A program made the translations under genes and the position numbers. This document shows, piece by piece, positions 1,101 to 23,084 of a DNA stretch of 24,033 nucleotides; position 1 is the stretch's first letter; each line of letters starts with the position of its first letter. Under the pieces are notes generated by a model, which worked only from the letters and a program-made list of their open reading frames with translations, did no database searches and was not told the DNA's origin. Location of the stretch: positions 1 to 24,033 of the IMG/VR virus record IMGVR_UViG_3300043436_004641; one strand, written 5' to 3'. Source of the stretch: a virus.

Positions 1101-2369
1101 ATGAGCAAAATTTTTATACAAATTGCGAGCTACAGAGACCCACAGTTGGTCCCAACTCTAAAGGATATGATTGCAAATGCCAAGAAACCAAAAAATTTAG
1201 TTTTCTCAATTGCAAGACAATTCAGTGAAACAGATGGGTTTGATAACCTTGATGAATTCAGAAACGATAAAAGATTTAAAATTTTAGACATTCCTTACCA
1301 AGAAGCTAAAGGTGTTTGTTGGGCAAGAAATTTAACCCAACAATTGTATGATGGTGAAGAATATACAATGCAGATTGACTCTCACATGAGATTTGAAAAA
1401 GATTGGGATGAAACTTTAATTAAAATGATAAAGGGTCTACAAAAAGACGGTTACAAGAAACCTCTACTTACGGGTTATGTCCCGTCTTTCGACCCTGAAA
1501 ATGACCCAGCGGGAAGAGCTAAAGATGCATGGAGAATGTCATTTGACAGATTTATTCCTGAAGGTGCGGTGTTCTTCTTACCTGAAACAATCCCAGGTTG
1601 GAAAGAACTTAAAAAGCCTGTGACGGCAAGATTCTATTCGGCTCACTTCTGTTTTACATTAGGGCAGTTTTCAACTGAAGTTCAACACAATCCTGAATAT
1701 TATTTCCACGGAGAAGAAATCTCAATTGCTGTAAGAGCTTACACTTGGGGTTATGATTTATTCCACCCACACGTTCCTGTAGTTTACCATGAATATACTC
1801 GTAAGGGTAGAACAAAACAATGGGATGACGATAAGGGTTGGGGTGAAAGAAACAGAATTTCTCATTTGAAAAACAGACAACTCTTTGGTATGGACGGCGA
1901 AAAACAAGAAGGACATGACGGACCTTATGGATTTGGACCTGAAAGAACTTTGAGAGAATATGAAAAGTATGCAGGAATCTTATTCGAAAAAAGAGCAATT
2001 CAACAATACACATTAGATAAAAATTATGCACCGAATCCATATAACTATGAGACAGAAGAGGATTGGAAAAACGATTTTGCTGTAGTATTCAAACATTGTA
2101 TTGATATCGGATATGCACAAGTTCCAGAAAAAGATTATGATTTTTGGGTGGTTGCATTTCATAATAAAGAGGATAAAACTTTATTTAGAAAAGATGCTGA
2201 TAAGGCGGAAATTAGTAGAATGATGAATGACCCTGATAAGTATTGTAAAGTGTGGAGAGAATTCCAAACATCAGAAACACCAACTTATTGGGTTGTTTGG
2301 CCTCACTCAGAGTCAAAAGGATGGTGTGATAGAATTACTGGTCAATTAACACACAATCACATAAGTTAA
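1101..2369 (+). CDS. GlcNAc-type glycosyltransferase (PF11397-like, Skp1 GlcNAc-transferase family)
   Basis: Probably transfers an activated sugar to an acceptor in the host cytoplasm. The N-terminus IFIQIASYRDPQL, the GVCWARNLTQQLY segment (71-83) and the DxH metal/nucleotide-sugar motif in QIDSHMRF (D93, H95) match the GlcNAc-transferase family that includes the Dictyostelium Skp1 hydroxyproline GlcNAc transferase. A second conserved block, FHGEEISIAVRAYTWGYDLF, follows in the middle of the protein. The last 100 or so residues, rich in Trp and charged residues, appear to be an added domain that I do not recognise. It is the first gene of a seven-gene same-strand cassette, directly after a terminator, so a promoter should lie in 1078-1100. 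The only near-match there is TATTCAT at 1083-1089. The family call is strong; donor and acceptor are unknown. Confidence 0.85.
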   Translation: MSKIFIQIASYRDPQLVPTLKDMIANAKKPKNLVFSIARQFSETDGFDNLDEFRNDKRFKILDIPYQEAKGVCWARNLTQQLYDGEEYTMQIDSHMRFEKDWDETLIKMIKGLQKDGYKKPLLTGYVPSFDPENDPAGRAKDAWRMSFDRFIPEGAVFFLPETIPGWKELKKPVTARFYSAHFCFTLGQFSTEVQHNPEYYFHGEEISIAVRAYTWGYDLFHPHVPVVYHEYTRKGRTKQWDDDKGWGERNRISHLKNRQLFGMDGEKQEGHDGPYGFGPERTLREYEKYAGILFEKRAIQQYTLDKNYAPNPYNYETEEDWKNDFAVVFKHCIDIGYAQVPEKDYDFWVVAFHNKEDKTLFRKDADKAEISRMMNDPDKYCKVWREFQTSETPTYWVVWPHSESKGWCDRITGQLTHNHIS

Positions 2370-2388
2370 GTATTTAAATAAAATTATC

Positions 2389-3021
2389 ATGATAAAAGAA
2401 TGGAGTTACAACCAAGTTGGTGGAAGAAGAGATGAAATAAAAAAATATATTTTAGATAATAATTTGATGTCTATTGATTTAGGCGCTTCCGCAATGTATT
2501 GGTCTTATCCTGAGTGTAAGTTTGTTGCGGATTCATTAGTTATTTCGAAAGAAGGAACAACCTTTTTTGAGGTTAATTTAGAAGATAAAAACACTTGGTC
2601 AGAATTGTTATCATATGTGGCATTGAATGGAAAGTTTGATTTTTCAATTTGTTCTCATACTCTCGAAGATGTTTTTAACCCTTTGGAGTTGATAGAATTG
2701 TTAGAAAAAATTTCTAAATCAGGATTTGTTGCAATTCCATCTAAGTATGATGAGTTCTCATTCTTATATGAAAACAAATATAGAGGGAATGCTCATCACA
2801 AACAATTTTTTGATGTGATTGACAATGAACTTGTTGTGTTTCCAAAGTTTTCTTGGATAGAAAATAATGAAAGGAGTAATGAAGTTTTAAAATACGACAA
2901 AGGGCATGAATTGTCTTTGACTTGGGAAAAAGAAATTCCTGTAAAGATATTTGCACAAGGAAAACCTTTTAGGTCAGACGGAGATTTAATACATAATTAC
3001 TATAATGAATTAATGAATTAG
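2389..3021 (+). CDS. Putative class I SAM-dependent methyltransferase
   Basis: A 210-residue protein with a Rossmann-like start: SIDLGASA (28-35) occupies the SAM-binding motif I position. FDFSICSHTLEDVFNP (83-98) resembles the motif IV region of Methyltransf_11-type enzymes, followed by a strand-loop ending in VAIPS. Motif I is divergent (DLGAS rather than E/DxGxGxG), so activity is not certain. It lies between two glycosyltransferase genes, one nucleotide from the next start (stop TAG, then ATG at 3023), which suggests methylation of a glycan. A TATTTAA sequence at 2371-2377, 18 nt before the ATG, may be an internal promoter. Some members of this fold instead bind sugars or are inactive. 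Confidence 0.6.
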   Translation: MIKEWSYNQVGGRRDEIKKYILDNNLMSIDLGASAMYWSYPECKFVADSLVISKEGTTFFEVNLEDKNTWSELLSYVALNGKFDFSICSHTLEDVFNPLELIELLEKISKSGFVAIPSKYDEFSFLYENKYRGNAHHKQFFDVIDNELVVFPKFSWIENNERSNEVLKYDKGHELSLTWEKEIPVKIFAQGKPFRSDGDLIHNYYNELMN

Positions 3022-3022
3022 G

Positions 3023-3724
3023 ATGAGTAAGATAGCAGTTATAAGTATATTATTTGATTATCCGAATCATTTTATTCCAACCTTCGAAAACAAACTTCTT
3101 AAAGATTTTAATCAAGAAGATTATTATGTTATTAGGTATGTAAGTGAAAACGAATCAATTAAGAATGAAAGTTATTATTTTAAGTTTACACATTTCAGAA
3201 TAAAAAAATTCGTTAGTTTCATAGAAGAAAATATTTTAGGAAAATATGATTATTTTATTCTTTTGGACGCTACAGACATAGGATATGTTGGTGATATAAA
3301 AAATATTCCAAGCATTATGGAGGAATATAAATGTAACATTTTATTTGGTGCTGAGAGGAATCTTTGGCCGAATACTGATTACAGTCATTTACATGAAAAT
3401 AAGGAAATTCCAACATCATATAAGTTTCTTAATGCAGGTGCTTTTTGTGCAAAACCAGATTCTTTTGTCTTTCATGTTAAAGAAATAATAGAAAGAGGAT
3501 TGGTAGGTTTGTGTGACCAAGGAAATTGGCAGATTGAATATCTTTTAAATTCGGATATTGAATTAGATTACAATAATAAACTAGTGTTAAATTCTTATTT
3601 GGCAAAAGATGATTTAATTATTGGTTATGATGGTATTGAATTCAAAACAAACACACCAATTTTTGTTCATGATAATGGAGGATATAATGACGATACAATA
3701 AAAATAATGGAATATTTCAAATGA
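3023..3724 (+). CDS. PLOD-type (procollagen glycosyltransferase-like) glycosyltransferase
   Basis: A 233-residue GT-A-fold candidate. YFILLDATDIGYVG (77-90) holds an acidic LDxxD motif for metal and nucleotide-sugar binding. LFGAERNLWP (107-116), KFLNAGAF (134-141) and CDQGNWQ (164-170) fit the glycosyltransferase domain of lysyl hydroxylase/procollagen glucosyl- and galactosyltransferases, which is also found in giant viruses and some phages. There is no hydroxylase domain, only the transferase. It is tightly coupled: one nucleotide after the upstream stop, and its own TGA overlaps the next ATG (ATGA at 3721-3724). In known members the acceptor is hydroxylysine or its galactosyl derivative; here the acceptor is unknown. 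Confidence 0.75.
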   Translation: MSKIAVISILFDYPNHFIPTFENKLLKDFNQEDYYVIRYVSENESIKNESYYFKFTHFRIKKFVSFIEENILGKYDYFILLDATDIGYVGDIKNIPSIMEEYKCNILFGAERNLWPNTDYSHLHENKEIPTSYKFLNAGAFCAKPDSFVFHVKEIIERGLVGLCDQGNWQIEYLLNSDIELDYNNKLVLNSYLAKDDLIIGYDGIEFKTNTPIFVHDNGGYNDDTIKIMEYFK

Positions 3725-4704
3725 GAACAGTAAGAATTACAAGACAAGGATTTCCAAATCACGGTCAACATAGTTGGATAAACTATTTTAAATTCATTTT
3801 ATCTAAAAAGTATAATGTAATTATCGACCCAATAAATCCTGATATTATTATACATTCTGATTTGAATTATAATGAGAATAATATTGACACATATACAGGA
3901 CACTTACCAACTAAATTTACACAAACAGATAAAAACAAAAAATTTATTTATGTGTCTGGTGAAGTTGCTAACTTTAGAGATTGTTTGGAATCAAATGAGA
4001 ATCAATGGTCAATAGGTTATAATAAATTCGAACACCCAAGATTTTTAAGACAACCTTCAGGTGTATTGGATGTATGGACTCTTTTTGATGAATCAAGATT
4101 GGTTGATAGTCCGTTGAATTGGTTGACAGAAAAGAGAGACTTCGATAAGATATTTTCAAGGAATGTTAGGTTTTGTTCAATAACTCAAGCATCACATAAT
4201 GATTTCAGAGAAAGTGTTTTTAACAAACTTGGAGAATACAAACAAGTTACATCATCTGGACCATGGAAACAAAATATCGATAGGTCTGAAGAACTTAACA
4301 AATACCAATGGATGAATCCTGTTTATGTTGGTAGAAATGATGGATTAACATATAGAGAAAAATTAAATTTCTTTGAGAAATATAAATTCAACATTGCAAT
4401 TCACTATACCAACACTGATTACATTCTACAAGAAAAAATATTCCACGCTTATTTCAGTGGTGCAATACCAATTTTCTTTGGAAACAAATACATTTTGGAA
4501 GAAGGTTTTAACCCTGAAAGTTTTATAAATTTACATGACTTTACAGATTTGAATGAATTTTTATCATTAGTTAAGGAGATTGATACTAATGAAAGTTTAT
4601 ATAGAAAATATATCGAATCTCCAATCTTTGTTGATAATAAATTACCAGATTATTATAACTTTGATTATACCCTAAACTTTTTAGAAAAAATAGTTGAATC
4701 TTAA
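3721..4704 (+). CDS. GT10 family fucosyltransferase-like glycosyltransferase
   Basis: The C-terminal half carries the alpha-1,3-fucosyltransferase signature: KFNIAIHYTN (222-231), then ILQEKIFHAYFSGAIPIFFG (235-254) with the conserved Glu-Lys pair (E238, K239), then NPESFINLHDF. This region binds GDP-fucose in GT10 enzymes. The N-terminal half is a divergent acceptor-binding half (FIYVSGE, then a WTLFDES block). The total of 327 residues is normal for bacterial GT10 proteins. It overlaps the previous gene by 4 nt and the next by 1 nt (TAATG), so translation is probably coupled. It should add fucose or a related GDP-sugar to a GlcNAc- or Gal-containing acceptor; the exact donor is not proven. 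Bacteroidota commonly make GDP-fucose, which would support such an enzyme. Confidence 0.8.
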   Translation: MRTVRITRQGFPNHGQHSWINYFKFILSKKYNVIIDPINPDIIIHSDLNYNENNIDTYTGHLPTKFTQTDKNKKFIYVSGEVANFRDCLESNENQWSIGYNKFEHPRFLRQPSGVLDVWTLFDESRLVDSPLNWLTEKRDFDKIFSRNVRFCSITQASHNDFRESVFNKLGEYKQVTSSGPWKQNIDRSEELNKYQWMNPVYVGRNDGLTYREKLNFFEKYKFNIAIHYTNTDYILQEKIFHAYFSGAIPIFFGNKYILEEGFNPESFINLHDFTDLNEFLSLVKEIDTNESLYRKYIESPIFVDNKLPDYYNFDYTLNFLEKIVES

Positions 4705-5417
4705 TGAAATACATTTTTACCACGTTAGCTGTAGGTGAAACATATCTTCAAAACGCATCAGAGTGTTATACAAAATATAGTGACCGTTGCACTGCAGACT
4801 TTAATATAACAACAAACGAACAATATCAGGTTGGTCCTAAAGTTAATTTAGACATATTCAAATTGGATAGATACGAAGACGGTAATCCCGGTTTTTCGTT
4901 TTACCTCAATTTAAAAGTGTTGTCTTTAAAATATTGTTTGGATAAAGGTTATGACTACATCATATATAACGATGCTGATTGGAGAATGACCGAAAATTTT
5001 AGTGAAGATAAATTATTTAAAATGTTCAATCACATGGAAAACAATAATTTAGACTTCCTTTTCGAAAGACCGGCTAAGATTGGTGGTCATAAGCAAGATA
5101 TGAGTAATTGTTTCTTTGATAGAAAATTATACGACTATCATGTATTCGAACACTCAAAATGGGATGAAGCTCACGTAGTTAATGAACAATTTATGGTTTT
5201 CAAGAATACTTGGAAATTCAGATATTTTGTTAGAAGGTGGGAAGAGTTTTTATGGTATTCAATTCACAATAACATAAGAAACTATCCTGATGGTTTTGAC
5301 ATTGGGGTGTCAGCATTAGATGCTGAAATGAAATGGGATTGGAATAGTTTTAGGGGATTTTTACCTGGATGTTTCGAGTTCCATGATAAAGCAGGAAATT
5401 TACATACAAGATTTTAA
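4704..5417 (+). CDS. Putative GT-A-fold glycosyltransferase with DAD motif
   Basis: A 237-residue protein whose beginning, MKYIFTTLAVGETYLQNA, resembles a GT-A first strand and nucleotide loop. IIYNDADWRM (86-95) supplies a DxD motif (D90, D92) after a hydrophobic strand. EQFMVFKNTWKF and a late FDIGVSALDAEMKW segment fit the acceptor side of such enzymes. I cannot place it in a named CAZy family. Its ATG shares one base with the preceding stop, and it lies in the middle of the cassette, which supports a sugar-transfer role. Confidence 0.55.
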   Translation: MKYIFTTLAVGETYLQNASECYTKYSDRCTADFNITTNEQYQVGPKVNLDIFKLDRYEDGNPGFSFYLNLKVLSLKYCLDKGYDYIIYNDADWRMTENFSEDKLFKMFNHMENNNLDFLFERPAKIGGHKQDMSNCFFDRKLYDYHVFEHSKWDEAHVVNEQFMVFKNTWKFRYFVRRWEEFLWYSIHNNIRNYPDGFDIGVSALDAEMKWDWNSFRGFLPGCFEFHDKAGNLHTRF

Positions 5418-5418
5418 T

Positions 5419-6045
5419 ATGAATATACAAGAAAACATCACCAAGTTTACTGACTTGGAAAAAAACGACAGTCTATCTGCATTTAGAGGACACACGGCAC
5501 AACAAAGCCATAACGCATATCAAGTTTTTTATGACTTCATCTCAGAAGTTAAACCAAGAAGAATTTTGGAGATTGGAACCGCATTAGGTGGGTTTACTGA
5601 ATTCTTAAGATTGATAACAAACGAACTTAATTTAGAAACCAAAATATTATCATATGATATTGCCGAAAGACCATGGTATAACCAAATGATTGAAAAGGGA
5701 ATAGATGTAAGAGTTGAGAACATTTTTAATGATGATTGGTCAGGAGTAAAACAAGAGGTTTCTGATTTTATAAAAGGGGATGGTCTTACTATTGTTCTTT
5801 GTGATGGTGGTTGGAAAATTGGTGAATTCAAAGTGTTATCTAAACTTATTAAAGAAGGTGATTTTATTCTAGCTCACGATTATTCTTTTAGTAAAGAAGT
5901 TTATGAATCAGAAATTAAAGATAAAATTTGGAATTGGTGTGAAATTACGGAATCAGATATTGAACAGTCTGTAATAGAAAATAATCTAAAATCTTATCAA
6001 GCAGATAAATTCTCCCAAGCAGTTTGGGTTTGCAAAGTAAAATAG
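5419..6045 (+). CDS. Putative class I SAM-dependent methyltransferase (Methyltransf_24/CmcI-like)
   Basis: I chose the ATG at 5419, one nucleotide after the upstream stop. An in-frame ATG at 5383 would overlap the upstream gene by 35 nt and add 12 residues with no family similarity. In the 208-residue protein, RRILEIGTALGGFTEF (47-62) is a clear SAM-binding motif I with E51 and GTALGG. LSYDIAERPW fits motif II. A later IVLCDGGWK block and ILAHDYSF (a metal- or acceptor-binding Asp) fit cephalosporin-hydroxylase/CmcI-type and sugar O-methyltransferases. It is the second methyltransferase-like gene in the cassette; O-methylation of a sugar, for example as a chain cap, is a reasonable inference. 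Confidence 0.7.
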   Translation: MNIQENITKFTDLEKNDSLSAFRGHTAQQSHNAYQVFYDFISEVKPRRILEIGTALGGFTEFLRLITNELNLETKILSYDIAERPWYNQMIEKGIDVRVENIFNDDWSGVKQEVSDFIKGDGLTIVLCDGGWKIGEFKVLSKLIKEGDFILAHDYSFSKEVYESEIKDKIWNWCEITESDIEQSVIENNLKSYQADKFSQAVWVCKVK

Positions 6046-6048
6046 TAT

Positions 6049-7716
6049 ATGAACGGAGTGACTTTAGTAACAGGTATTTGGGATATTGGTAGAGGTGAAC
6101 TATCTGAAGGATGGTCAAGACCTTATCAACATTATTTAGATAGATTCGAAAAACTATTGGATGTTGAGGAAAACATGATAATTTTTGGTGATGAAAGTTT
6201 GAAAGAACTTGTTTTCAGGAAAAGAACGTCAGATAACACTCAATTTATAGTTAGAGATGTTTCTTGGTTCAAGAATGAATTCTTTGACAAAATTCAAAAC
6301 ATTAGAAATAGTGATGAATGGTCAAATCAAGTCGGGTGGCTAAAAGATTCAACGCAAGCAAGACTTGAATATTACAACCCTTTGGTGATGTCTAAGGTAT
6401 TCCTATTACATGACGCTAAAATTATGGACCAATTCAATTCAGAATATTTGTTTTGGATTGATGGTGGTATTGCGAACACAGTTCATCCTGGTTATTTTAC
6501 ACACGATAAAGTATTTGATAAGTTGCCTAAATTCATTTCCAAATTTTCATTTATTTGTTTTCCATATGAGGCAACAAGTGAAATTCATGGATTCAATTGT
6601 CATGTTTTAAATGAAATTGCTGGAGACAAAGTTAATAAAGTTGCAAGAGGTGGATTTTTTGGAGGACCTAAACACACAATTGCGGATATAAATTCAATAT
6701 ACTACGGATTATTAAGTTCAACCCTAAATGAAGGATACATGGGGACGGAAGAATCAATCTTTTCAATCATGTGTTATAAACATTCAGATTTAATTAATTA
6801 TTTCGAAATAGAGGGCAACGGACTTATAAATAAATTTTTTGAAGAACTTAAGAACGAAACGTTAGTTGTTAAATCTGAAAATCCGACAAGAGGATTATCA
6901 AATTTAGATACAAATAAAGTTGGATTGTATGTGATTGGATTCAATAGTCCAAAACAATTCAAGACTTTAATAGATTCAATGTTGGCTTACGACCAAGATT
7001 ACATTTTAAAAACTAAAAAGTTTTTATTAGATAATTCAACCGACCTATCAACTACCGAGGAATATTTGGCAATTTGTAATGAGTTTGGTTTTGAACATAT
7101 TAAAAAAGATAATTTAGGTATTTGTGGTGGAAGACAATGGATTGCGGAGCATTTTGACCAAACTGATTTAGATTATTATTTATTTTTCGAAGACGATATG
7201 TTTTTCCATCCGAAAGACGGAGTTTGTAGAAATGGATTCAATAGATTTGTTCCAAATTTATATTCTAAGACTTTGGAAATTATTAAGAAGGAAAATTTTG
7301 ATTTCTTAAAACTAAACTATTCAGAATTTTTTGGTGACAATGGGACACAATGGTCTTGGTATAATGTTCCACAACATTTAAGAGTTGAATATTGGCCAGA
7401 AAAACCTAGACTACCCCAAGTAGGATTGGACCCAAATGCACCAAGAACTTTATTTAAATCGGTTCATTCACATAAAGGAATCCCTTATGTTAAGGGTGAA
7501 GTTTATTATTGTAATTGGCCACAAGTGGTTTCAAGAACAGGAAATCAAACAATGTTTTTGGATACAACGTGGGCACATCCTTACGAACAAACATGGATGA
7601 GTCATATGTATCAGTTAACAAAACAAGGAAAATTATATTCAGGTTTATTGTTAATGACTCCAACAGAACACGATAGGTTCGAACATTACGACAGAAGTAT
7701 ACGCAAAGAGTCATAA
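6049..7716 (+). CDS. Two-domain glycosyltransferase: HtrL/YibB (WlaTC)-like domain plus GT-A domain
   Basis: The N-terminal part (about 1-270) matches the HtrL/YibB family: VTLVTGIWDIGRGEL near the start, NMIIFGDESL (42-51), YNPLVMSKVFLL, FWIDGGIANT (135-144), ARGGFFGG (199-206) and GTEESIF. That family includes the Campylobacter WlaTC-type transferases. After a short junction (about 275-290), a second domain begins with VGLYVIGFNSPKQF and resembles GT2-like GT-A enzymes. It has LGICGGRQW (356-364) and YLFFEDDMFF (377-386) with an acidic EDD triad. At 555 residues it is about twice the length of one such domain, which supports a genuine fusion rather than insertion. It is the last gene of the cassette, three nucleotides after the upstream stop. 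The two active sites may add consecutive sugars; specificity cannot be read from the sequence. Confidence 0.7.
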   Translation: MNGVTLVTGIWDIGRGELSEGWSRPYQHYLDRFEKLLDVEENMIIFGDESLKELVFRKRTSDNTQFIVRDVSWFKNEFFDKIQNIRNSDEWSNQVGWLKDSTQARLEYYNPLVMSKVFLLHDAKIMDQFNSEYLFWIDGGIANTVHPGYFTHDKVFDKLPKFISKFSFICFPYEATSEIHGFNCHVLNEIAGDKVNKVARGGFFGGPKHTIADINSIYYGLLSSTLNEGYMGTEESIFSIMCYKHSDLINYFEIEGNGLINKFFEELKNETLVVKSENPTRGLSNLDTNKVGLYVIGFNSPKQFKTLIDSMLAYDQDYILKTKKFLLDNSTDLSTTEEYLAICNEFGFEHIKKDNLGICGGRQWIAEHFDQTDLDYYLFFEDDMFFHPKDGVCRNGFNRFVPNLYSKTLEIIKKENFDFLKLNYSEFFGDNGTQWSWYNVPQHLRVEYWPEKPRLPQVGLDPNAPRTLFKSVHSHKGIPYVKGEVYYCNWPQVVSRTGNQTMFLDTTWAHPYEQTWMSHMYQLTKQGKLYSGLLLMTPTEHDRFEHYDRSIRKES

Positions 7717-10993: not shown

Positions 10994-11305
10994 TGATAAG
11001 ATATACCAATTATTAACAACGAATCTAAACTCAACACAAGCGTATCTATCTAAAAGAATTTCATCGTAATCCTCATCGATTTTTCCGATGTCAGGTTTTA
11101 CGAGTGTTCTTGTCATAGCCTTAACGACTACGTGGTCTGTGGTTCTTGAATCTAACACGATTGTTGATTCATCGATACCTCTTACAACGATACACGCTTC
11201 TCCGTTTGTTGAGTATTCTCTTTCTGACACAGTAGATATTTCGGAAGTCTTTAAAGTAACTCCGTTGATGATTCTCTGTGATGGTATTGTTTTAATAATT
11301 GCCAT
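10970..11305 (-). CDS. Small conserved-looking phage protein of unknown function, downstream of the neck gene
   Basis: A 111-residue, mostly beta-strand protein (TLKTSEISTV, EACIVVRGIDESTIVLDS, HVVVKAMTRTLVKPDI, CVEFRFVVNNWYILSS) with no motif I recognise. The fold looks like a small structural or decoration-type beta protein. Its ATG shares one base with the stop of the neck gene (TAATG on the minus strand), so it is translationally coupled to it and probably acts in head or neck assembly. Its 3' end overlaps the 3' end of the polymerase gene by 24 nt in opposite orientation. Confidence 0.65.
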   Translation of the reverse strand: MAIIKTIPSQRIINGVTLKTSEISTVSEREYSTNGEACIVVRGIDESTIVLDSRTTDHVVVKAMTRTLVKPDIGKIDEDYDEILLDRYACVEFRFVVNNWYILSSDGLKNS

Positions 11306-12432
11306 TATATTACGTATATTTGTCTCGGCATTGCTCTGAACTTCATTTGTTTATTTAAGTTCTCAGCAATTAATGCTTCTCTTTCCATTACCTTTTCAGG
11401 TCTAAGTCTTGTTAACCATCCCTCGGCACCAATAAGTTCCTCAAGTAATTTAGACTTTTCGTCCTTAGCCTCAGTTAACAATGATTGGTAATCCATGGTA
11501 ATTTCAGAGTCAGGTGTTTTCAAATTTCCACTATACTTACCTCTTACTCTTGCCAAAGTTTCTTTAACATATGCGGTGAACCATCTTCTAACCCATTGTT
11601 TACCTGGAGTATTCAAGTCTTCCCAAGTCAAATCTTCAATAGGGACGTCTGTTGGTAATTTGATGATATCTGGATTTGCTTTCAAACAATCAGCTCTGTC
11701 ATCAGTGCCTACATCATAATACCAATACCAAACAGCTTTACCTGCATATAAACTATAGTTATTCCAATTGAATCTACCGCCAGGTGTGTTGTAAAGGAAA
11801 ACGTTTCTTTTACCATCAGGTAATCCTGTAATTCTATAAGTTAAAGAACCACCAAGGATTCTGTTCAATATATTTGCCTCTTGCATTCTTATCAAGTAAT
11901 CGAAACCTGACATCATGAAATAAGAACCTTGATAACCCATTTGAGCGTATCCGGCTTCATTAGCACCTAAACCAATACCACCAAAACCAAATCCACCAAC
12001 ACCACCTAAACCAAACGCAGTCCATGGTTGGTTACTGAACCATAAAAGTTCGTTAACTTCACGACCAGCAGGTATTTCGTAGTTTTGAGTGTTTGCACTT
12101 AATATAAAATAATCTTGTTTTAATACCCAAGGGCCTGTGGTTTGGAGACCAACAATTTTTGAATATGAGTATGCGAATTGTTGTTCAAAATCCATTGTTC
12201 TTGTAACAAGGGCTCTCGCTACAGATTTTTCCGTCATATTAAGGTTAACAAGGTTAACCCACTGACTATCAATCAACCATTGAAGAACATATTCTTCATA
12301 ATCACCAATGGCAAGTTCCATCAGAGAATCCATCATCTCATCTTCAACTTCCACACTTCTGAGTGGAGCACCTAACAGGTGTTTAATTCTGGTATATATT
12401 TTCGACCTTTCTGGTTCTGGTATTACTGGCAT
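11305..12432 (-). CDS. Neck protein, T4 gp13-like head completion protein
   Basis: A 375-residue protein with features of gp13-type neck proteins, which close the filled head and join it to the tail. It has an N-terminal helical region (LMELAIGDYEEYVLQWL), a W-V-L-K-QDY strand, QNYEIPAGREVNELLWF (116-132), and a late amphipathic block, WFTAYVKETLARVRGKY (284-300), followed by a charged helix. Between residues 138 and 156 there is a Gly/Phe-rich loop (FGLGGVGGFGFGG) that lengthens it relative to T4 gp13 (309 residues). An element TATATTTAT lies just before the ATG. The gp13 assignment rests on remembered family features and on nearby gp15/gp18-like genes, so it is probable rather than certain. 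Confidence 0.6.
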   Translation of the reverse strand: MPVIPEPERSKIYTRIKHLLGAPLRSVEVEDEMMDSLMELAIGDYEEYVLQWLIDSQWVNLVNLNMTEKSVARALVTRTMDFEQQFAYSYSKIVGLQTTGPWVLKQDYFILSANTQNYEIPAGREVNELLWFSNQPWTAFGLGGVGGFGFGGIGLGANEAGYAQMGYQGSYFMMSGFDYLIRMQEANILNRILGGSLTYRITGLPDGKRNVFLYNTPGGRFNWNNYSLYAGKAVWYWYYDVGTDDRADCLKANPDIIKLPTDVPIEDLTWEDLNTPGKQWVRRWFTAYVKETLARVRGKYSGNLKTPDSEITMDYQSLLTEAKDEKSKLLEELIGAEGWLTRLRPEKVMEREALIAENLNKQMKFRAMPRQIYVI

Positions 12433-12453: not shown

Positions 12454-13992
12454 TTATTCTATTTCATGTAACAGAGAGTCTATGTTAAATGAATATTGAT
12501 TTTCACTTGTTAATGGATTGTTTTTGAAAATAAGTATCTTATTTGTCTTCTGATTAACAAATATTAACCAATCAGTATCATATTTCTTCACATTACCTGT
12601 ATCTAATAATTTTACCTTATTTTTCATCAAAGACATGTTAGAATATGGTTTTACCTGTGCAGTATATTCTTTACCATCTAAATTAACAATCAAATCAATT
12701 CCTTTGAATGCATCTTTTTTCTGTCCATGACCTCCGACTTGAATTATTTTCGCATCTTTACCGAAATACAATTCCATTTTCTTTGTTGCACTTGATTCAC
12801 TTTTTTGACCTCTCTTCCAAAGAACCATTAGGACTTTGATGATATTAATAAAATCTTTGTTTGTTTTGGTAAAGATGTCGTTTCTAAAATAATCTAACGC
12901 TCTTAAGAATCTTTTCACCTCATTGAGGTTTCTATTTTCGGGATTTGAAAAATCAAACATCTTATCTAATTGTCCTAAAGATTCTATTTGATTGTTTACT
13001 GCTTTAACAATAAGACAAAATGCGTTGAAATTTGTGTTAAGGTTATTTAACATTGACCTACCATCTTTTGTTTCAATTCCGTAGAATCCTGACATTTCTT
13101 TTGAAGTGGCGTCAACCCAAAATTGACTAAAGACTTTTTTCAAGATGTGTGTTATACCAGTCTGATAAACATCTTTAATTTTTCTATTATTAATTAACTC
13201 ATTGTAGAAGGCAACTTCTTTTGGAGAACAGAATTTAGGTTCTTCTGATTCAGAAATAATTTTCGAAAATCCTTCTGATTCTAAAAGTTTTGTTTCTGTT
13301 TTCATCTCATACAACTTCGATATAAAATCCCAATTGACAACCTTCCAAAAATTTGAAATGTATTCGTCTCTTTTGTTTCTATATTTCAGATAATAAGCGT
13401 GTTCCCATAGGTCCAAACCTAAAAGTGGAAATCCACCACCTTCAATAACATTCATTAGAGGATTGTCTTGGTTTGGTGTTGACATAATTTTTAAACCATT
13501 TTTTGCAGTCAGAACCAACCAAACCCAACCAGAACCAAATCTATCTTTGGCAACGGTTTCAAATTTCTTTTTAAAAGTTGTGAATGAACCAAACTCTTTG
13601 TTAATTTTTTTATGAAGTTCGCCAGTTAACTTTTTTGGGTTGGGTGTTAACATGTTCCAAAACAAAGCGTGGTTGAATGCTCCACCAGCATTGTTTCTAA
13701 CTGATTTATCAAAACGGCTAATAGTTTTAATGATTTGTTCTAATTCTAAATCACCGTATTTTTTCTTTGATAATGCTGCGTTTAATTTATCTACATACCC
13801 TTTGTAATGCTTGTTATAATGGAAGTCCATTGTTTCTGCATCGATAAATTGTTTGAGGGCTGAGTAGGAATAAGGTAGTTTCTCTATTCCGATTTTTTTC
13901 ATTTCGTTAATCAACTGTTTTTTTTCTTCTTGTATGTGGTTTTCTTGTATTTGTTTTTCTATCAGTTGAATCTCTTCTTCGATTTTTTTCAT
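12454..13992 (-). CDS. Fe/Mn superoxide dismutase fused to a PD-(D/E)XK nuclease-like domain
   Basis: Residues 1-35 form a charged, probably coiled-coil leader. Residues 37-230 are a complete Fe/Mn superoxide dismutase. The metal ligands H58 (DFHYNKHY), H108 (GGAFNHALFW), D194 and H198 (LDLWEHAYYLKYRN) are all present. GG before NH and Q175 in NQDNPL fit the Mn-type or cambialistic form. Residues about 255-512 form a separate domain: a helical part (EVKRFLRALDYFR), then E407, then KGIDLIV (D433) and AQVKPY (Q446, K448), the D...QxK arrangement of restriction-endonuclease-fold enzymes. The strand WLIFVNQKTNKILIF follows. Typical SODs are about 200 residues, so more than half of this protein is extra. 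One frame runs through both parts with no stop. The SOD half should convert superoxide to peroxide and oxygen; the nuclease activity is inferred from motifs only. Confidence 0.85.
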   Translation of the reverse strand: MKKIEEEIQLIEKQIQENHIQEEKKQLINEMKKIGIEKLPYSYSALKQFIDAETMDFHYNKHYKGYVDKLNAALSKKKYGDLELEQIIKTISRFDKSVRNNAGGAFNHALFWNMLTPNPKKLTGELHKKINKEFGSFTTFKKKFETVAKDRFGSGWVWLVLTAKNGLKIMSTPNQDNPLMNVIEGGGFPLLGLDLWEHAYYLKYRNKRDEYISNFWKVVNWDFISKLYEMKTETKLLESEGFSKIISESEEPKFCSPKEVAFYNELINNRKIKDVYQTGITHILKKVFSQFWVDATSKEMSGFYGIETKDGRSMLNNLNTNFNAFCLIVKAVNNQIESLGQLDKMFDFSNPENRNLNEVKRFLRALDYFRNDIFTKTNKDFINIIKVLMVLWKRGQKSESSATKKMELYFGKDAKIIQVGGHGQKKDAFKGIDLIVNLDGKEYTAQVKPYSNMSLMKNKVKLLDTGNVKKYDTDWLIFVNQKTNKILIFKNNPLTSENQYSFNIDSLLHEIE

Positions 13993-14036: not shown

Positions 14037-15797
14037 TTAATGTCTTAACTCGTTGATTCTTCTTAAAATTTCTTCAGCATAATCTGCAGAATTTACGTTA
14101 TCTCCCATTACAGTTGAGATAACTTGTTTTTTTGCGTTGAGAATATCGTAGATAATTCCTTCGATTGTATTTTCAAAAATAGGATAATAAACGAGAACGT
14201 TATTTTTTTGACCATATCTATAAGCTCTGTCTTCGGCTTGTGAATGGTCGGATGGTAAAAATGATAGGTCATTCATAATTACTGCTTCAGCGGAGGTCAA
14301 TGTTAAACCAACACCAGCAGCCTTAATGTTTCCAACAAAAACTTTTACTTTGGGGTTATCTTGAAACTCATCAACACTATGTTGTCTTTCTACTTTTGAC
14401 ATCGAACCGTCAACCTTAACCGCAGACTTTCCAAAGTGTTCAACAATTTTATTTAGTGATTCTGTAAAATTACAAAAGATAATAACCTTCTTATCTTGTT
14501 CTAAAATATTTTCTGTTAATTCAATCGTTTGTGTAATTTTTTCGTTTGCAATTATCTGTCTTACTTTTGTAAGTTTTGTAAATTGAACTGTTAAGGATTT
14601 AGATTCTTCAGGATTTTTTTCATACCAATTATAGTATTCTCCCATAACCTCCTCATATTCTTTTGATTTTAATCTTAGATAGATTGGAGTTATAATTTTA
14701 TCAGGTAAGTCTAACACATCTTCTTTCAATCTTCTTAAGGTTAGACCTGAGGTTCTATCTCTTAATTCTTCCAAATTAGATGCACCCATTACATTCCATA
14801 CTTTTCTTGAACCAACTTTGAATTGGTATCCTTGACAGTATCTTATAACATAAGCCATCCAATTTTTTGCAACTGGAGAATCTATCAAACTCAATAAATT
14901 ATAATAATCAATTGGACGTGATGTCATAGGTGTTCCTGTAAGTAACCACAATCGGTCAACTTTTTTTACAAAGTCGTTGATTAATTTTGTTCTTTGGGCT
15001 TGAGCATTTTTGATATAGTGTGCCTCATCAATAACCACCAAATCAAAATTGGCTCCAAGAATTTGCGACTCATCTTTTTTCTTAGCGTCATGGAAATTTT
15101 TTATAATGTCGTAGTTTATAATAACAAAGTCGTGTTCTGTCGAAAATTGTTTTCCTTCCGCAATGAAGATTGACCTATCAGAATAATTTTCAATTTCTCT
15201 TTTCCAGTTTATTTTCAAAGTTGCGGGACAAATGATTAGGATTTTTTTGGCTCCCGATTCTAATGCAGCAACGATACTTGAGGTTGTTTTACCAAGACCC
15301 ATGTCGTCAGCTAAAATGAATTTTTTATTTTCAAGAAGTTTTTGGATTGCTTCTTTTTGGTGTGATAACAAAGGTCGTTTAGAATATTTTTCATAATCTA
15401 CCACAACATCTTTTACAGTATTGTCTTTGATTATTGCTGCCTTTGGTAACCAAAAATCATGAAGCTCTTGTGATTCTTTTATCTTACCCCAAATGTGAAA
15501 CGCCTTTTCTTTGTCCGCTAATAATTTCTCAACCCAAACTTTTTCAGGAATTTCAGTTAACAATCTATCGTCAGCTAATTTCTGTGCGAAGTATGCGTCG
15601 AGGATAACCCATTTCTTTGCGACCTTGGGTTGTTTGTCATGATTGTTAATGATGTATTCAGCCTGACTTCTTGTTGGGTAAAACTTACGATTTATTTCCG
15701 ATTTTCTTTTTAATTCAAGAATATAATTGTTTGCACCATTATACGTTTCCAAAATAGAAAGTGCTTTAGATTCCATCGATATGGTATTATCACTCAT
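14037..15797 (-). CDS. SNF2-family (SF2) DNA helicase/translocase
   Basis: A 586-residue ATP-driven DNA translocase. Motif Q/I region: LLSHQKEAIQKL (143-154), then DDMGLGKTT (164-172, Walker A K170). Motif Ia is ICPATLKINW, motif II is DEAH (257-260) and motif III is LLTGTP (285-290). The C-terminal RecA lobe has VIIFCNFTES, VGLTLTSAE (496-504) and motif VI QAEDRAYRYGQ (520-530). The arrangement and short length resemble SMARCAL1/HARP-like and phage SNF2 proteins; no chromatin-binding or nuclease domain is attached. I start at ATG 15797; a TTG one codon earlier is less likely. The ATG shares a base with the SET gene's stop (TGATG), so the two are translationally coupled. Roles could include fork or recombination-intermediate remodelling (as T4 UvsW), anti-defence or stripping of bound proteins. 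Confidence 0.93.
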   Translation of the reverse strand: MSDNTISMESKALSILETYNGANNYILELKRKSEINRKFYPTRSQAEYIINNHDKQPKVAKKWVILDAYFAQKLADDRLLTEIPEKVWVEKLLADKEKAFHIWGKIKESQELHDFWLPKAAIIKDNTVKDVVVDYEKYSKRPLLSHQKEAIQKLLENKKFILADDMGLGKTTSSIVAALESGAKKILIICPATLKINWKREIENYSDRSIFIAEGKQFSTEHDFVIINYDIIKNFHDAKKKDESQILGANFDLVVIDEAHYIKNAQAQRTKLINDFVKKVDRLWLLTGTPMTSRPIDYYNLLSLIDSPVAKNWMAYVIRYCQGYQFKVGSRKVWNVMGASNLEELRDRTSGLTLRRLKEDVLDLPDKIITPIYLRLKSKEYEEVMGEYYNWYEKNPEESKSLTVQFTKLTKVRQIIANEKITQTIELTENILEQDKKVIIFCNFTESLNKIVEHFGKSAVKVDGSMSKVERQHSVDEFQDNPKVKVFVGNIKAAGVGLTLTSAEAVIMNDLSFLPSDHSQAEDRAYRYGQKNNVLVYYPIFENTIEGIIYDILNAKKQVISTVMGDNVNSADYAEEILRRINELRH

Positions 15798-16162
15798 CAA
15801 AAAACGATACCATTGGCGTAGTTTATAAAAAGTTCTTCACCTTCTTTGATGTCTCTCAGCGCTTTGAATACAAAAAGACCTAATTCGTTTTCTGTATACC
15901 AATTAACATTAGCGTTCTCTGAATGATTATAGTAAGAACCATAACCCGTAACTAATGCGTGAGTTGTCCACCTTTCACCTCTTGGAAAACAGAAAGTATA
16001 GTTTGAAAAAGCGGGAACTTGTTCGTTTTTGTTTTGTGGGAATGCTAAGAATGGGCACTCTTCTATTATTTCACCTTTAGATATTCTTTGACTTGAAAAA
16101 ACACCCAAACCGTGAATTGGACTTTTCTTTAAAATTATTTTTGTAGGTGGTCTTATTTCCAT
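15797..16162 (-). CDS. SET-domain protein (putative protein-lysine methyltransferase)
   Basis: A 121-residue minimal SET domain. It has HGLGVFSSQRISKGEII (17-33, the N-terminal SET-N block), then GYGSYYNHSENANVNW (73-88) with the NHS core (N79-S81) that forms the pseudoknot and SAM site. The end, LRDIKEGEELFINYA (102-116), carries the catalytic tyrosine (Y115). No pre-SET, post-SET or zinc Cys cluster is present. SET enzymes methylate lysines of histones and other proteins using SAM; the bacterial and phage targets are mostly unknown. It is the first gene of a two-gene unit with the SNF2 helicase, and its own promoter-like element lies in a 38-bp divergent gap. Confidence 0.88.
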   Translation of the reverse strand: MEIRPPTKIILKKSPIHGLGVFSSQRISKGEIIEECPFLAFPQNKNEQVPAFSNYTFCFPRGERWTTHALVTGYGSYYNHSENANVNWYTENELGLFVFKALRDIKEGEELFINYANGIVF

Positions 16163-16743: not shown

Positions 16744-17451
16744 ATGGAATACTTAATTTCTGAAAACCAACTCAAGTTTTTAATCAATGAGATTGAATAC
16801 GACCCTGAAGTTGAGAAGATTCAAAAAATTCTTGTTAAGAAATATGACTTAGGTAACTTTGGTCCAAAGAATGACGGAGTTGATGGTAAAGCAGGTCCGT
16901 TGACAAGAAAGGCTTATCAAAAAGAATTCGGTAAAGAATTAAGTTTGAAAAATAAGACTGATGTTAAATCCCCTGATAAATCTCCTGTCAAGTCAACTGG
17001 TTCATTTGATGCAGTATTGGTTGGTGGGTTAGATTATAGAGACGGAGATTTGGATATTGATTCACAAGTAAAATTATTAAATTCAGGATTGGGAAGTGAT
17101 AAGAAAATAAAAGGTTTCAGATATAGCACTTCAACACGAGATATTGAAGACTTCTTGGAAAAGAATCCAAAGATTCCTGTCTACTTATTTAGTGCTGGTT
17201 GTAAAAAAGCAAATGAGTTGGCGGTAAGTCCATATGTGAACAAAAATAAACTTTTTATAATTGAACCATATGCCTTAGGACCAGTTACTAAAAACAATGT
17301 TAGAGCGGCTGTAAGTAGTGGGGTTCCTTCGTCAAACGTGTTTGTGGGAAAGTCAGGAGGTAGAGGTGCTGGTGTTGTAAGTGGTGCTAGTTCATCTAAC
17401 TCGTCATCTCATTGGGGTGCGTTGAAACAAGTTGGATTAATGACAAAATAA
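16744..17451 (+). CDS. Peptidoglycan-binding-domain protein with N-terminal packaging-like peptide
   Basis: A 235-residue protein in three parts. Residues 1-16 (LISENQLKFLINE) resemble a prohead-protease propeptide ending in an I-x-E cleavage-type site; similar N-termini occur in the genes at 22059 and 23104. Residues about 20-63 match PG_binding_1: EVEKIQKIL, then DGVDGKAGPLTRKAYQ with the DGxxGPxT signature. After a Lys/Ser/Pro linker (68-86), residues 88-235 form an alpha/beta domain I do not recognise (DAVLVGGLDYRDGD, PVYLFSAGCKKANELA, LFIIEPYALGPVT, VFVGKSGGRG). It could be a virion-carried cell-wall protein or endolysin-related protein, but I see no known muramidase or amidase catalytic set. 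Thirty nucleotides separate it from the upstream gene, and seven from the next. Confidence 0.65.
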   Translation: MEYLISENQLKFLINEIEYDPEVEKIQKILVKKYDLGNFGPKNDGVDGKAGPLTRKAYQKEFGKELSLKNKTDVKSPDKSPVKSTGSFDAVLVGGLDYRDGDLDIDSQVKLLNSGLGSDKKIKGFRYSTSTRDIEDFLEKNPKIPVYLFSAGCKKANELAVSPYVNKNKLFIIEPYALGPVTKNNVRAAVSSGVPSSNVFVGKSGGRGAGVVSGASSSNSSSHWGALKQVGLMTK

Positions 17452-22058: not shown

Positions 22059-23084
22059 ATGAGAAAAAAATTGATTATCAGTGAATCAGAAATCGATGAA
22101 ATCCGTAGAATGTATGGATTGGTGACAGAACAATCTTCTTCATTCTCTATACCTAAAGAAGTTGCTGGTTTCATTTCAAAAATAGAATCAGTTTTTTCGT
22201 ATATGGAGCTGGGTAAAATTGTGGGGAAAACATATAATGGTTCTGAAAATTTGAATCTATTTAAAAACTATGTTGAAAATACAATAGGTTTTGATTGTTG
22301 GAATAATATGAGTGATGCTTTCAAAGCACAGTTATGGTCTTATGCTTTTCAGGCTGATTCCGGTCAAAAAGGAATGTTTTTTAGATGGGTGGCTGGATTG
22401 GCGAACGCAATTGACCCTTCGATTGATAGACTTAGCATTGTTAATAAACCATTGGAAAACAAGAATGTTCAAGACGCTATAAAATTAATTAAAAAAAATT
22501 GTTCAAACATAAATGATTACTATGAACAATATTTGAATGTAGTTGATTCTCAGTATAAATCTGGTGATTATAATGATAATTACAAATACATATGGCGATA
22601 CAGACCAATTGCAATTTCAAGGTTAATGAATGGTGAAAGTTGGAATAAGGTTAAGCAAGATTGGAAATCATCTCTAAACAATGTAGTTACGACTATCCCT
22701 TCAAAGGTGGTTGATAAATCTGTTACGAAATCAACTGATAAAGTTGTTTCGGAACCAACGACAAACTCTCCATCAAAAAAGAAAGAAAAGATAACAGGTA
22801 AAGATTTACAGGAGTTTTTAGATAACATAAGAAGTAAAACAGTCGGTCTTAAGGTTGATTTCGATTCTGTGAATATTGACATGGATAAACGAGAATTGAC
22901 TTTTAGTTTAGATGAAACCAAAGAACCTGTCAAAAGATTGACATTTGCTGTTAACCTGAATAATGAGAAAACTTGTGAATCTTGTGTTAACATTGGGGTA
23001 AAAAACAATGTTCCTGATGACAAGAGAATTAAAGGAAAGTTTGAAAACGGAACAAGAATGTTTGAGTTATTCGCCCTTTATTAA
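22059..23084 (+). CDS. Lysozyme-like phage protein with N-terminal packaging-like peptide
   Basis: A 341-residue protein. Residues 1-25 (KKLIISESEIDEIRRMYGLVTEQ) resemble the N-termini of the genes at 16744 and 23104 and contain I-S-E and V-T-E sites of the type cut by prohead proteases. Residues about 60-205 look like a lysozyme-type helical domain of large Bacteroidota phages: FDCWNNMSDAFKAQLWSYAF, then RWVAGLANAI (109-118), then YNDNYKYIWRYRPIAISRLM (171-190). I cannot assign the catalytic residue with certainty. A Ser/Thr/Lys linker (about 210-245) leads to a small C-terminal beta domain with ECT-type cysteines (TCESC). It stands between two promoter elements and directly after a terminator, so it is a single-gene unit. 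It could be packaged and ejected to breach the cell wall. Confidence 0.5.
   Translation: MRKKLIISESEIDEIRRMYGLVTEQSSSFSIPKEVAGFISKIESVFSYMELGKIVGKTYNGSENLNLFKNYVENTIGFDCWNNMSDAFKAQLWSYAFQADSGQKGMFFRWVAGLANAIDPSIDRLSIVNKPLENKNVQDAIKLIKKNCSNINDYYEQYLNVVDSQYKSGDYNDNYKYIWRYRPIAISRLMNGESWNKVKQDWKSSLNNVVTTIPSKVVDKSVTKSTDKVVSEPTTNSPSKKKEKITGKDLQEFLDNIRSKTVGLKVDFDSVNIDMDKRELTFSLDETKEPVKRLTFAVNLNNEKTCESCVNIGVKNNVPDDKRIKGKFENGTRMFELFALY

Follow-up and report, generated by a model that had tools for sequence, protein, structure and literature searches.

The viral sequence IMGVR_UViG_3300043436_004641 (positions 1 to 24,033; the window, 24,033 nt in its whole length) carries on its minus strand a frame of 512 codons plus stop (12454..13992) in which a superoxide dismutase (SOD) is joined to a nuclease-like domain. 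We propose, with a probability of roughly 0.6, that this gene encodes a capsid-targeted polyprotein of a large T4-like freshwater phage, and that this polyprotein is cut in the prohead so that the SOD and the nuclease end up as cargo of the virion. According to this proposal, the N-terminal ~30 residues would serve as a capsid-targeting propeptide and carry the protein into the prohead core, where the phage's gp21-type prohead protease would cleave behind E30 and also behind E238, E248 or both. Cleavage would free a Mn-type SOD and a QxK-type PD-(D/E)XK nuclease of ~265 residues within the head; both would remain with the packaged DNA and might be injected with it. The SOD could then act against superoxide, protecting DNA or the host, and the nuclease against host or rival DNA. 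The evidence comes from sequence and structure prediction on metagenomic contigs, and from it we infer that the protein is directed to the capsid, cut, retained in the virion and injected, and likewise what both enzymes act on.

Residue invariance and the triplets at the joints between domains were scored on an alignment of 33 representatives of the SOD-nuclease. A hydrophobic residue followed by a variable one and then by an invariant glutamate is encountered solely at residues 28-30, 236-238 and 246-248; a further triplet of this kind, at 15-17, is near-invariant. The remaining conserved hydrophobic-x-E triplets lie within the folds and have a middle residue that is fixed or nearly so. The proposed prohead-protease site ahead of the SOD, I-N-E|M (residues 28-31, 13900..13911, minus strand like all features of the gene), closes the proposed propeptide (residues 1-30, 13903..13992); E30 and M31 are invariant, and the middle residue is N, T or Q. 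A weaker possible site, I-x-E|x, is situated within the leader at residues 15-18 (13939..13950; E17 in 91% of the alignment). Two further sites are proposed for the linker, namely L-x-E|S at residues 236-239 (13276..13287; L236 and E238 invariant, middle variable) and (I/L/V)-x-E|S at residues 246-249 (13246..13257; E248 invariant, middle variable). In the window protein the three joints read QLINE|M, KLLE|S and IISE|S.

These motifs resemble the L/I-X-E cleavage consensus of T4 gp21 (PMC9026906). The window is too short to include gp21 and gp23, which are known from ~320-kb relatives. A gp21-type protease was matched in six of them (G001-G006), in five above the Pfam cut-off (1e-22 to 1e-25) and in G004 by a weak and partial match, and the same six encode a gp23-type capsid protein (1e-62). 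The capsid propeptide of the relatives ends in HLINE|ASS or FLINE|ASS, that of the cultured Flavobacterium phage immuto in QIVSE|AN and that of Microcystis phage Mel-JY01 in QLISE|AN, with the putative cleavage point placed by the motif and its position ahead of the mature gp23-like region. In the full-length AlphaFold2 model, the leader is a helix (residues 2-33) of low confidence, the linker between SOD and nuclease is likewise of low confidence, and the SOD half is poorly modelled due to a shallow alignment. The initial annotation had speculated that the SOD acts as a redox sensor or as a metal-dependent switch for the nuclease. We found no support for this; a low-confidence linker whose motifs agree with the cleavage consensus of the phage's prohead protease rather suggests that the domains are separated at head maturation.

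The enrichment of the motif at the joints was estimated in several ways. Six neighbouring gene families contain 5 such triplets in 2536 residues, which corresponds to 0.13 expected in the 66 residues of the joints (p about 3e-4). The stretch of 40 residues past the SOD, taken over 13 diverse fusions, holds 14 [ILV]xE[AS] motifs versus 1.1 in shuffles (14 reached in 0 of 5000), and within the SOD and C-terminal domains of these fusions the motif is below chance. Among viral contigs, a motif of the (I/L/V)xE type precedes 14 of 22 free-standing and 17 of 21 fused SODs, compared with 4 of 80 bacterial SODs. Leaders with two (I/L/V)xE motifs were furthermore found at the N-terminus of 20 of the 319 proteins of the 321-kb relative G001, versus 7 of 1160 internal windows; many are of the type KIVRLTESDLxRLVKRVIKEQ (e.g. 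199376-199729, 202592-202996 and 215495-216007; L581-L597). Such leaders are thus widespread and possibly form a capsid-targeting module. Two proteins encoded on the plus strand of the window, at 16744-17448 and 22059-23081, begin with similar leaders (MEYLISENQLKFLINE; MRKKLIISESEIDEIRRMYGLVTE), and one of them has a peptidoglycan-binding-like stretch.

The SOD half (residues 36-229, 13306..13887) matches Pfam Sod_Fe_N (6e-23) and Sod_Fe_C (1.8e-40), both well over the cut-off, and PDB profiles as strongly as 8.9e-66. The metal ligands H58 (13819..13821), H108 (13669..13671), D194 (13411..13413) and H198 (13399..13401), from which the initial annotation had recognized a complete Fe/Mn SOD, are invariant (33 of 33), and so are the second-shell residues H62, Y66 and Q175, the Gly before the second His and the WEHAYY segment, in which the dimer-interface residues of the SOD family are located. 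The Gly (not Gln) before the second His together with Q175 in NQDNP indicates a SOD of the Mn type. By these sequence features the window protein contains a complete Mn-type SOD with predicted dismutase activity, which is likely retained in the fusion since metal ligands and second shell are all kept. The SOD domain is 46-57% identical to bacterial SODs, the nearest of which are mostly from Bacteroidota. In a phylogenetic tree the fused SODs group together beside Bacteroidota SODs when two fragmentary long-branch phage rows, which spoiled the label test on this tree, are set aside; an origin on the Bacteroidota side is thus indicative only. The nearest phages by capsid protein include Flavobacterium, Microcystis and Rhodothermus phages. 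Together with the nearest SODs, these capsid relatives make Bacteroidota the likely host of these large T4-like phages.

No family in Pfam, NCBIfam or PADLOC matched the C-terminal domain, Pfam and NCBIfam detecting the SOD alone; PHROG 5018, a family without an assigned function, matches it weakly, a relative giving the best value (7.9e-5). Residues 229-512 were modelled with AlphaFold2 from 33 relatives (mean pLDDT 80.8), and the model consists of helices followed by an alpha/beta core, which we assign to a helical part (residues 254-394, 12811..13233) and a PD-(D/E)XK-like nuclease core of the QxK type (residues 395-512, 12457..12810). The solved structures ranked highest by Foldseek are SPARDA DREN and I-Ssp6803I, with EcoT38I, a phage Holliday-junction resolvase and PvuRts1I further down; the best PDB match has a probability of 0.99 with a modest E-value of 6.5e-3 and a local alignment. 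High-probability matches are nearly all PD-(D/E)XK enzymes; MepB occurs as well. The model hence supports a PD-(D/E)XK fold for residues of about 254-512, as suggested by the initial annotation, which had also allowed for a domain unlike any nuclease fold. The three residues that it had singled out, D433 (12694..12696), Q446 (12655..12657) and K448 (12649..12651), show the same D...QxK pattern as the catalytic residues D41, Q60 and K62 of DREN (PMC12205087), and a helix-1 glutamate, E399 (12796..12798), can be added to them.

A stand-alone relative of the domain, 290 residues long, is encoded by a 735-kb phage (one-sequence hmmsearch test 1.8e-16; hhalign 97%). E399, D433, Q446 and K448 are invariant among the fusions and unchanged down to this relative at 22% identity, and the C-terminal domain is therefore likely an active nuclease. 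No SOD was found in the 735-kb phage record, and no relatives of its stand-alone domain were found in the viral contigs. We regard the predicted domain as a new QxK nuclease family of its own, to which a protein of solved structure from a bacterial defence system is related. Matches to the pattern HGxKxDAxKG in UvsW helicases proved to be unrelated to it. SET-domain genes are found close to the nuclease domain in the window (15797-16162) as well as in the 735-kb phage (L082:5332-5769).

A search for the same architecture, as recommended by the initial annotation, was successful in viral contigs, with at least 246 full-length single-frame SOD-nucleases (68 distinct, 65-100% identical), some of them in contigs of ~320 kb; a pattern scan of bacterial genomes revealed no relative of the C-terminal domain. 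The genes always follow one another in the same order, from tail sheath and intervening genes via (SET), helicase, SOD-nuclease and Ad2-like neck to a small gene and polB. In the window, the conserved neighbours are a SNF2/UvsW-like helicase gene upstream (14037..15800, minus strand; profile match and gene order) and a neck or head-tail adaptor (Ad2-like) gene downstream (11305..12432, minus strand; gene order). Since so many full-length frames are always placed between the helicase and neck genes, we rejected an assembly or frame error, considered by the initial annotation in case the fusion were absent from relatives. Both halves are under purifying selection, with rough dN/dS medians, at dS near saturation, of 0.04 for the SOD, 0.11 for the helical part and 0.16 for the nuclease core. 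In one contig (L256:3988-5447, minus strand) the SOD-nuclease is present as two overlapping frames, probably because the copy is broken or the sequence contains an error. The literature searched contains no description of a SOD-nuclease fusion, in line with the initial annotation, nor of SOD in phage virions; however, a distant protein of this kind had already been deposited in UniProt as 'superoxide dismutase' (A0A6J5L953, 501 aa, uncultured Caudovirales phage), its C-terminal domain being unnamed. The collections searched contained no DNA record for it.

Wider architectures were obtained by a scan for another SOD motif in viral contigs. Among the matches listed there are diverged SOD-nucleases (L509, L522 and L459; 32-34% identity in the C-terminal domain), free-standing SODs, and proteins with a zincin-like domain (HEWVHExQ...EDEANA) that is combined with SOD alone (~365 aa), with SOD and a GQD...QVK nuclease-like domain (~712 aa) or with SOD and another domain (~740 aa). 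In L496, L545, L508, L450, L456 and others, at the same locus, the zincin-like domain of ~130 aa (TLAHEWVHExQ...NEDEANAFAG) is N-terminal to the SOD, and the domains C-terminal to the SOD comprise ~350 aa, one being QxK nuclease-like and one unassigned. Pfam gave a weak match of the zincin-like domain to Peptidase_M91 (0.04, under the cut-off), and the assignment follows the motif alone. Of 17 loci checked, 15 correspond to the window locus, most of them flanked by the helicase gene on the upstream side and the neck gene on the downstream side, while L500 and L502 differ; in L489 and L508 the SOD is kept at the locus without any nuclease. Where the modules around the SOD are exchanged at this locus, (I/L/V)xE-type motifs are present at most of the joints. 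It is conceivable, at a little under even odds, that this one locus is an exchangeable enzyme-cargo cassette with a SOD core and swapped flanks (zincin-like domain, QxK nucleases, unassigned domains), whose polyprotein is packaged, cleaved at conserved joints by the prohead protease and injected along with the genome. If so, SOD and nuclease would be active in the first moments of infection.

Several observations weigh against packaging and cleavage. The (I/L)xE motif is short, the linkers are homologous so that the motif counts are not independent, and the viral-contig SOD set contains some bacterial-looking SODs. E30 is always followed by Met, versus Ala after the capsid site; 3 of the 13 longer forms (one a truncated frame) have no strict [ILV]xE[AS] past the SOD, and the zincin-SOD forms show no obvious N-terminal targeting peptide. 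Moreover, a nuclease inside the head next to phage DNA would require a safeguard, for which DNA modification, metal limitation or, as in DREN, a requirement to oligomerise might be considered.

An unpackaged single-chain bifunctional enzyme of the infected cell, whose nuclease processes phage DNA or breaks down host DNA while the SOD shields DNA from superoxide, would fit the catalytic-type residues kept in both domains, the helicase gene always preceding the SOD-nuclease gene and the free-standing SODs that other large phages have. We consider it unlikely, because it leaves unexplained both the invariant L/I-x-E joint triplets, which are like the capsid propeptide site, and the swapping of modules with similar joint motifs.

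That the SOD is chiefly an oligomerisation scaffold, MnSOD dimers or tetramers gathering the nuclease domains, would agree with the invariance of the dimer-interface segment. DREN and I-Ssp6803I, the closest folds, work as D2 tetramers, and DREN on its own is inactive (PMC12205087). Nevertheless, metal ligands and second shell are intact, so that SOD activity is likely retained, and the SOD also occurs at this locus alone or with unrelated modules, which makes a mere scaffold very unlikely. The constant vicinity to the Ad2-like neck gene might point to a nuclease-fold protein of the neck or of head completion that cuts or seals DNA at the portal, the more so as the head-completion TnsA family (PF08722) was not found in four relatives and its slot could be open. 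Yet the SOD stays at the locus without nuclease, and there is no rationale for a SOD within a neck protein; we judge this role to be highly improbable.

Phage SODs are usually classed as auxiliary metabolic genes aiding the dying host. If the packaged-polyprotein proposal is correct, they would instead be enzymes that are made in advance and either delivered along with the DNA or retained beside it, and the fusion would be a packaging device. The leader and the (I/L)xE joints would then provide a concrete rule for recognizing packaged enzymes elsewhere among uncultured large phages. Regarding other genes, UvsW-like helicases in further viral contigs (L166, L172, L200, L202 and L203) have intein-like insertions at DEC|HG (CFDGDTLIKT...VVSN), and the window harbours a glycosyltransferase and methyltransferase gene cluster (1101-7716, plus strand; GlcNAc transferase, HtrL_YibB, CmcI-like) beside a PTPT-repeat protein.

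Compared with known proteins, the C-terminal domain of A0A6J5L953 matches our model with a Foldseek E-value of 3.9e-15 at 29% identity. The SOD half shares all ligands and both SOD domains with Fe/Mn SODs, the nearest being mostly those of Bacteroidota, and differs from them by its leader and the fused nuclease and by forming its own cluster. With SPARDA DREN and I-Ssp6803I the phage domain has the predicted alpha-beta fold in common, with D...QxK as in DREN, but it has no detectable sequence-family match and an extra helical part of ~140 residues. T4 internal proteins possess short N-terminal propeptides, and fused enzymes, nucleases included, can be packaged via the internal-protein route (PMC9026906). 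The fusion would share with the T4 internal head proteins (IPI, IPII, IPIII and Alt, with targeting sequences processed by gp21) the gp23/gp21 background, an L/I-x-E after a leader and an enzyme as cargo. It differs in combining two enzymes per chain with internal sites and in its leader, a predicted helix of 30 residues compared with a capsid-targeting sequence of 10-19 residues of the T4 type. Neither SOD nor a QxK nuclease is among the known T4 cargoes.
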